From Candidatus Woesearchaeota archaeon (GTDB taxonomy: Archaea > Nanobdellota > Nanobdellia > SCGC-AAA011-G17 > JAGVZF01), in contig JACPNH010000019.1 in assembly GCA_016185565.1 (NCBI GenBank), positions 1-39,467 on the forward strand: a stretch of 39,467 bases of DNA. The letters run 5' to 3'. Of this stretch, positions 13,792-26,354 are shown one piece after another. The position numbers and the translations under genes are program-made. The notes beneath the pieces are model-generated. The model worked only from the letters and a program-made list of their open reading frames with translations, had not been told where the DNA came from and made no database searches. How positions within the stretch are numbered: the first letter of the stretch is position 1; every line of letters begins with the position of its first letter.

Positions 13792-13877
13792 GCCCCGGTA
13801 GCTCAATCTGGTAGAGCTCACGGCTGTTACTACTAGCTGAAACCGTGTGGTTGAGGGTTCAAATCCCTCCTGGGGCG
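13792..13877 (+). tRNA. tRNA-Asn(GTT), one 12-nt intron at 37/38
   Basis: Acceptor GCCCCGG/CTGGGGC, D-arm GCTC/GAGC, anticodon stem CACGG/CCGTG, T-arm GAGGG-TTCAAAT-CCCTC; loop CTGTTA[ctactagctgaa]A. Confidence 0.9.
13830..13841 (+). other. tRNA-Asn intron (12 nt)
   Basis: Removal restores loop CTGTTAA; 4-nt helix has one T-T mismatch. Confidence 0.8.
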
Positions 13878-18723: not shown

Positions 18724-18827
18724 TGGGCCCGGGCAGATTCGAACTGCCGACCTCCACCTTGTAAGGGTGGCGTCATTTGCGGGTTTCTTATTTTTAATTA
18801 TTAAACTAACCGCTAGACTACGAGCCC
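18724..18827 (-). tRNA. tRNA-Val(TAC) with a 31-nt D-loop intron
   Basis: Spliced 73 nt: GGGCTCGTAGTCTAGCGGTTATGACGCCACCCTTACAAGGTGGAGGTCGGCAGTTCGAATCTGCCCGGGCCCA. Confidence 0.93.
18777..18807 (-). other. tRNA-Val D-loop intron (31 nt)
   Basis: BHB: GCGG-TT|A-GTTT ... AAAC-CCGC-AA|A. Confidence 0.9.
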
Positions 18828-25727: not shown

Positions 25728-25855
25728 GGTTTTATTACATTTATTATGGTTTATAAATTTTTTTATTACGATAAAATGTATAACAAAAAGCTTTAAAAAG
25801 ACTCTATATCTTTTTGTCCTTTATAGCGGAGTGGGGCAGTTAGGAGTGCCCGTCG

Positions 25856-25875
25856 AATCTTAAAAAGATGCGGAA
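25856..25875 (+). other. tRNA-iMet intron 1 (20 nt), position 29/30
   Basis: BHB: CCGT-CG|A ... GCGG-AA|G with intronic hairpin ATCTT/AAGAT. Confidence 0.88.
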
Positions 25876-25883
25876 GGCTCATA

Positions 25884-25904
25884 AGGCATTAACTGCTTAG
25901 AGAG
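25884..25904 (+). other. tRNA-iMet intron 2 (21 nt), position 37/38
   Basis: Bulges TA|A and AG|A; helix CTC/GAG plus one A-A mismatch; removal restores CTCATAA. Confidence 0.8.
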
Positions 25905-25920
25905 ACCCGGAGGTCGTTGG

Positions 25921-25947
25921 AAGTTTTACTTAAGTAAAGCTGACGAA
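25921..25947 (+). other. tRNA-iMet intron 3 (27 nt), T-loop 53/54
   Basis: BHB: CGTT-GG|A ... GACG-AA|T with intronic helix AGTTTTAC/GTAAAGCT. Confidence 0.9.
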
Positions 25948-26024
25948 TTCAAATCCAACCTCCGCTACTTTATTTTACAATATTTATAGGTCTTTTTTTA
26001 ATAAAACTATTAATTTTACTAAAA

Positions 26025-26040: not shown

Positions 26041-26149
26041 GATTTTTTATTAACTACCCATTTAGAGTTTTTATAGAATGAACGGACTTAAACTAATCTA
26101 GAAGCGCCGGAACTGGGATTTGAACCCAGATCTCCGTTAGGAGCCAGCT

Positions 26150-26161
26150 ACCTAGTATTCT
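26150..26161 (-). other. tRNA-Ser intron 2 (12 nt), position 37/38
   Basis: CTGG-AA|A ... CTAG-GT|A; helix CTGG/CTAG pairs 4 of 4 including one G-T. Confidence 0.85.
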
Positions 26162-26168
26162 TTCCAGG

Positions 26169-26189
26169 TTCACCTTTCTTTAAAGAAAA
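26169..26189 (-). other. tRNA-Ser intron 1 (21 nt), position 30/31
   Basis: BHB: CACC-AG|T ... GGTG-AA|C with intronic TTTC/GAAA. Confidence 0.88.
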
Positions 26190-26354
26190 CTGGTGCCATA
26201 CCAGGTTAGGCGATTCCGGCTTGGTATAAAAGGTAAAATTATGATATATAAAGCTGTCGCGCAAGCCGTTAGATGTGAGAAGTAGACGTGAATTTTTGTG
26301 CAAAGTTTGTTTTCAAAAGGTTTATATATTTTTTACTTTATATTAAAACTTCAG

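Follow-up and report, generated by a model that had tools for sequence, protein, structure and literature searches.

Archaeal tRNA introns of 11–129 nt, their insertion at 29/30 and 30/31, and the presence of several introns in one gene have all been published (PMC4090602). The multi-intron tRNA genes of the Thermoproteales, N. equitans and ARMAN (PMC4090602, PMC4033280) have introns at the same sites as the genes described here (29/30, 30/31 and 37/38), with the same 4-bp central helix, 3-nt bulges and length range, and likewise several per gene. The same 30/31 point also divides the split tRNA-Lys(CUU) of N. equitans and Staphylothermus (PMC4090602), whereas here it holds an intron that would be spliced in cis from one continuous gene. 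Among the splicing endonucleases, alpha4 and alpha2 enzymes have been described as strict for canonical motifs, and alpha-beta enzymes and epsilon2 enzymes with special loops as broad (PMC4090602, PMC6379350, PMC4033280). Woesearchaeota are missing from the lists of multi-intron lineages in PMC4090602 and PMC4033280, and their enzyme, as examined here, looks to be encoded by a single gene. The gene reported below thus belongs to the known class of archaeal multi-intron BHB tRNAs, and what is new is the added lineage.

The window, by which we mean the whole 39,467-nt stretch of contig JACPNH010000019.1 that was analysed, comes from a 0.80 Mb, 84% complete genome assembly whose S10 protein resembles those of Woesearchaeota most (83% identity with RIFCSPLOWO2_02_FULL_30_14). 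Positions 26105–26220 of its minus strand contain a tRNA-Ser(GGA) gene with a 116-nt precursor and two introns, one of 21 nt at 30/31 and the other of 12 nt at 37/38, whose removal leaves a perfect 83-nt class II cloverleaf with a long variable arm, the GGA anticodon and G73. The minus strand reads GCCGGAATCGCCTAACCTGGTATGGCACCAG[TTTTCTTTAAAGAAAGGTGAA]CCTGGAA[AGAATACTAGGT]AGCTGGCTCCTAACGGAGATCTGGGTTCAAATCCCAGTTCCGGCG, with the introns in brackets. Based on the sequence and the spliced fold, exon 1 (26190–26220) comprises the 5' strand of the acceptor, the D-arm and positions 26–30, ending in CCAG; exon 2 (26162–26168) comprises C31, C32, T33, G34, G35, A36 and A37, with the anticodon (positions 34–36) at 26163–26165; and exon 3 (26105–26149) comprises A38, positions 39–43 (GCTGG), the long variable arm, the T-arm, the 3' strand of the acceptor and G73. 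The initial annotation had described a class II tRNA that is disguised until both introns are removed, and this description held in its location, strand, identity and insertion sites. The Rfam tRNA model RF00005 spans exactly 26105–26220 on the minus strand (42.1 bits). A default ARAGORN scan of the window missed the locus, and its intron mode misread the unspliced precursor as tRNA-Leu(tag), yet it called the doubly spliced 83-mer tRNA-Ser(gga) and paired every stem. RNAfold likewise folded the spliced form into a textbook class II cloverleaf (-35.4 kcal/mol), and an intron-aware scanner run over both strands of the whole window ranked the two-intron Ser(GGA) parse best for the locus and returned zero matches on the reversed window.

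Intron 1, TTTTCTTTAAAGAAAGGTGAA (26169–26189, minus strand), is inserted after position 30. According to the helix parse, exon positions 25–28 (CACC) pair with GGTG of the intron to form a 4-bp central helix flanked by the 3-nt bulges AG|T and AA|C, followed by an inner hairpin, TTTCT/AGAAA. With the intron letters shuffled, such a central helix arises by chance with P = 0.0012; when five or more inner-helix pairs are required as well, P falls to 1.5e-5. The motif had been called a perfect BHB, which is accurate for the central helix, and the inner helix is good; by the strict hBHBh' definition, however, the outer helix is weak, consisting of one G-C and two G-U pairs (G24-C32, G23-U33 and U22-G34). 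Intron 2, AGAATACTAGGT (26150–26161, minus strand), lies after position 37, the canonical site, and has exactly the 1+5+4+2 layout attributed to it, A / GAATA / CTAG / GT. Its 4-bp central helix is formed by CTGG (positions 32–35) and CTAG, with one G-U pair, and bulges are present at both junctions (AA|A and GT|A). The inner helix has no pairs, which places the 5' site in a loop, so this intron has the relaxed hBH form and not the strict hBHBh' form. Because its central helix alone could arise by chance with P = 0.02 when the intron letters are shuffled, support for intron 2 comes mainly from the cloverleaf and from relatives, among them a near-identical intron, ATAATACTAGGT, at locus L060. 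To call it minimal was an overstatement: the shortest archaeal tRNA introns have 11 nt (PMC4090602), and in our set of serine tRNAs 12 nt is the length seen most often at 37/38 (14 of 57 introns).

One other multi-intron tRNA gene was found in the window, an unannotated initiator tRNA-Met(CAT) at 25825–25967 on the plus strand. Introns of 20 nt at 29/30 (25856–25875), 21 nt at 37/38 (25884–25904, with one A-A mismatch in the central helix) and 27 nt at 53/54 (25921–25947, with a 9-bp inner helix) were parsed by hand and then checked, and the spliced 75-mer was identified as tRNA-Met(cat). ARAGORN and Rfam both missed the unspliced gene, as did the intron-aware scanner owing to the A-A mismatch; other hidden tRNA genes may therefore remain in the window. 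ARAGORN called the sequence at 13792–13877 (plus strand) tRNA-Ser(act), but a tRNA-Asn(GTT) carrying a 12-nt 37/38 intron, CTACTAGCTGAA, with an imperfect central helix is the better reading, and a tRNA-Val(TAC) with a 31-nt D-loop intron near 20/21, also missed by ARAGORN, lies at 18724–18827 (minus strand). No tRNA-Ile was detected in the window by ARAGORN, by Rfam at E values up to 1 or by the intron-aware scanner. The proposal that intron 3 of a tRNA-Ile shares the 30/31 site consequently found no counterpart here; the nearest candidate is the three-intron initiator tRNA-Met, one of whose introns is at 29/30.

The pair of introns extends beyond this genome. In several Woesearchaeales families rpsJ is a near neighbour of tRNA-Ser(GGA), and orthologues in other families of the order have the same combination, an upper intron at 30/31 or 29/30 plus one at 37/38, often of 12 nt. 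Examples are L060 of genome G006 (31 nt at 29/30, together with the 37/38 intron cited above), L046 (59 nt at 29/30 and AAATACCTAGTT at 37/38) and L225 (a 23-nt intron ending in GGTGAA at 30/31 and a 13-nt intron). Other rpsJ-linked orthologues have a single intron or none. Which of the two upper sites is occupied differs between families, and the upper intron is usually preceded by AG| and ends in AA|, as if the site had slid by one base along with the exon sequence. At the Ser(GGA)/rpsJ locus two genomes of one genus show opposite states, with both introns in G006 (L060) and neither in G024 (L056), which suggests that the introns were lost or gained jointly when a spliced or foreign copy took the place of the gene. 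The Ser(GGA) copy near rpsJ in a third genome (L277, G088) is also intronless. Across 109 parsed serine tRNA genes, 34 had both introns, 43 neither, 23 only that at 37/38 and 9 only that at 29/30 or 30/31, a co-occurrence with an odds ratio of 7 (P = 6e-6, kinship among the 109 genes being ignored). A tRNA-Ser(GCT)-like gene, L096 of G002, lacks the anticodon stretch that L080 of G001 has, and is either a broken gene or an assembly fault.

Exon and intron covary in these relatives. Exon position 28 changes together with the intron in the 30/31 helix, where the pairs CACC/GGTG, CACA/TGTG, CACT/AGTG, CACT/GGTG, CGCC/GGCG, CGCA/TGCG and CGCT/AGCG occur, along with one imperfect pair. Over distinct combinations, the paired fraction at 30/31 was 0.97, compared with 0.74 ± 0.05 when introns were permuted (0 of 5000 permutations), and that at 37/38 was 0.87 compared with 0.70 ± 0.03 (0 of 5000), the observed pairing being inflated in both tests by the parser's demand for at least three pairs. 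One mismatch is present in 27 of the 57 helices at 37/38. The exon is almost invariant at 29/30, and no covariation was evident there: 1434 of the 5000 permutations reached the observed value. Relaxed architectures are the rule among the parsed serine tRNAs: the outer helix has at most one pair in 38 of 43 introns at 29/30 or 30/31, and the inner helix at most one pair in 46 of 57 introns at 37/38.

Could the insertions be neutral and unspliced, in a decaying gene or pseudogene? The misreading of the locus by gene-finding tools would fit such a view, which is nevertheless highly improbable given that all stems are perfect once spliced, that orthologues retain the introns with compensatory changes, and that no other gene with the Ser(GGA) anticodon is present among the tRNA matches of the host genome. 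A probable archaeal promoter element, AGCTTTATATA (TATA-like, read by eye), at 26245–26255 on the minus strand, about 25–35 nt upstream of the gene, also speaks against decay; by eye, a candidate element, AGCTTTAAAAA, precedes the initiator tRNA-Met at a similar distance. We assign an equally slight chance to boundaries displaced by at least one base from 30/31 or 37/38, or to an unspliced tRNA-Leu(TAG). ARAGORN's intron-mode call on the raw sequence favours the latter, whose anticodon stem would however be weaker and include a G-U pair. Shifting intron 1 disrupts the anticodon stem, and the mature Ser(GGA) sequence is directly visible in the intronless relatives L056, L146 and L157; A38 fits on either side of intron 2, an ambiguity that leaves the product unchanged. 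Somewhat less remote, but still improbable, is a recent transposition of the 30/31 intron out of a different tRNA in this genome, for which comparison of introns among tRNAs had been recommended. Transposition is documented in Thermoproteales (PMC4033280), and 30/31 is also occupied in this genome in Lys(TTT), Arg(CCT) and Leu(TAG). The comparison did not bear it out: by eye the introns of this genome have different inner hairpins that look unrelated, the GGTGA(A/T) with which they end follows from the pairing to CAC in the exon, and the Ser(GGA) site is filled in other families (L225, L224, L230 and L299), which points to descent.

We therefore regard the locus as, very probably, a functional gene for tRNA-Ser(GGA), from whose precursor two BHB-type introns would be lost through the archaeal protein-based pathway. 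Once the gene is transcribed, the EndA endonuclease would cut inside both bulges of each motif and RtcB would ligate the exons; genes for both proteins are present in the host genome. In the assembly (G000:C11), the RtcB reading frame (L322, 1498–4176, minus strand) is 892 aa long, with an apparent intein at its start (MNCLHPDTKI ... HNFIANSIISSNCGM) before the ligase part. Intron 1 is probably removed first and intron 2 after it, because intron 1 interrupts the anticodon stem that serves as the outer helix of intron 2; this helix has one pair in the precursor and five once intron 1 is gone. The motif of intron 1 also ties up C25 of the D-stem, and the D-arm would therefore settle only after that cut. 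Ordered intron removal in other archaea has been described by the tRNAscan-SE authors (PMC8450103). Folding energy was rejected as proof of the BHB motifs, since the minimum structure of the full precursor in RNAfold is a different, competing fold (-44.1 versus -41.3 kcal/mol with the intron 1 motif enforced), and a chaperone or co-transcriptional folding may thus be needed.

The cutting enzyme would be an alpha-type EndA encoded by one gene, and its active form is probably a homotetramer. The host genome has one PF01974 gene (L031, 1474–2028, minus strand), encoding 184 aa from the first ATG, in keeping with alpha4-type genes (a single gene of about 180 aa with one PF01974 domain), and no beta gene was found in the host or in nearly all of its relatives. 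Single EndA genes are general in the order: 41 relatives have one per genome, with rare exceptions. The best solved match of the host protein is the alpha subunit of N. equitans (E = 5.5e-41), followed by the alpha4 enzyme of M. jannaschii (1A79), which like the host enzyme is the product of one short gene and has the catalytic Y-H-K, visible in the alignment. The two proteins are equal in length, without gaps, across the region where ARMAN-2 has extra residues, and 31 Woesearchaeales EndA sequences all lack the CSL/ASL loop insertion, which in broad-specificity enzymes has a lysine near the active site. The C-termini of the host and M. jannaschii proteins differ, Tyr in the latter standing opposite Trp181 of the host sequence YEISWKKP; Trp181 aligns with W384 of ARMAN-2, which has been named as bulge-stabilising (PMC12397907), and this column is Trp in 31 of 31 Woesearchaeales sequences. 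The C-terminal Trp and a host rich in relaxed introns are shared with the alpha-beta EndA of N. equitans (3IEY) and the epsilon2 EndA of ARMAN-2 (4FZ2/9W2K), but unlike these the host EndA has no second gene, fused unit, or ASL or CSL insertion. It also differs from the EndA of the nanoarchaeon Nst1, which is reported to be alpha4 and to cleave canonical introns only (PMC4033280), whereas the host alpha-type enzyme faces relaxed, non-canonical ones.

The enzyme would be ordinary if a beta subunit of a broad alpha-beta endonuclease were present and had diverged too far to detect. Subunit composition is unreadable from sequence, and the closest solved relative is itself the alpha subunit of an alpha-beta enzyme; we nonetheless consider this explanation unlikely, if a good deal less so than those dismissed above. 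Two EndA genes were found only in G105, G118, G183 and G198 among 149 genomes of the phylum. In G118, which at 0.5 Mb on one contig resembles N. equitans in size and content, the same search recovered the second, weaker gene at E = 4.9e-16, so that a beta subunit of the N. equitans type would be visible. No second gene was found in the Woesearchaeales assemblies G003, G006, G009 and G025, which comprise one or two contigs, and the number stayed at one in G003, G006 and G009 with E values up to 10; when a further endonuclease domain was sought in the host genome, G001 and G008 with the same E limit, just weak fragments in long reading frames came up. One EndA gene coexists with relaxed introns in the well-assembled genomes G006 (two contigs; L060), G009 (one contig; L292), G063 (100% complete; L225) and G047 (100% complete; L221, L246).

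On these gene counts and intron structures, Woesearchaeales look like an exception to the rule that alpha4 enzymes are confined to strict motifs. We rate at about an even chance the more specific reading that a loop-less, single-gene alpha EndA with the C-terminal Trp of the broad enzymes removes both kinds of relaxed intron from one precursor, breaking the rule that ties such activity to alpha-beta or epsilon2 enzymes and a CSL or ASL. A partial literature search found no paper on an alpha-only DPANN EndA with relaxed introns, and earlier notice is possible, for instance in work on endonuclease types (Fujishima 2011, Kaneta 2018). The mismatch between enzyme and substrate is a real lead, as yet unproven. 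Since routine tools miss or misname such genes, tRNA counts of uncultured archaea come out lower. If the reading of the enzyme is true, it would challenge the published co-evolution model, in which a new endonuclease type or loop let introns spread, and would point to the Arg/Trp bulge clamp as an alternative determinant.
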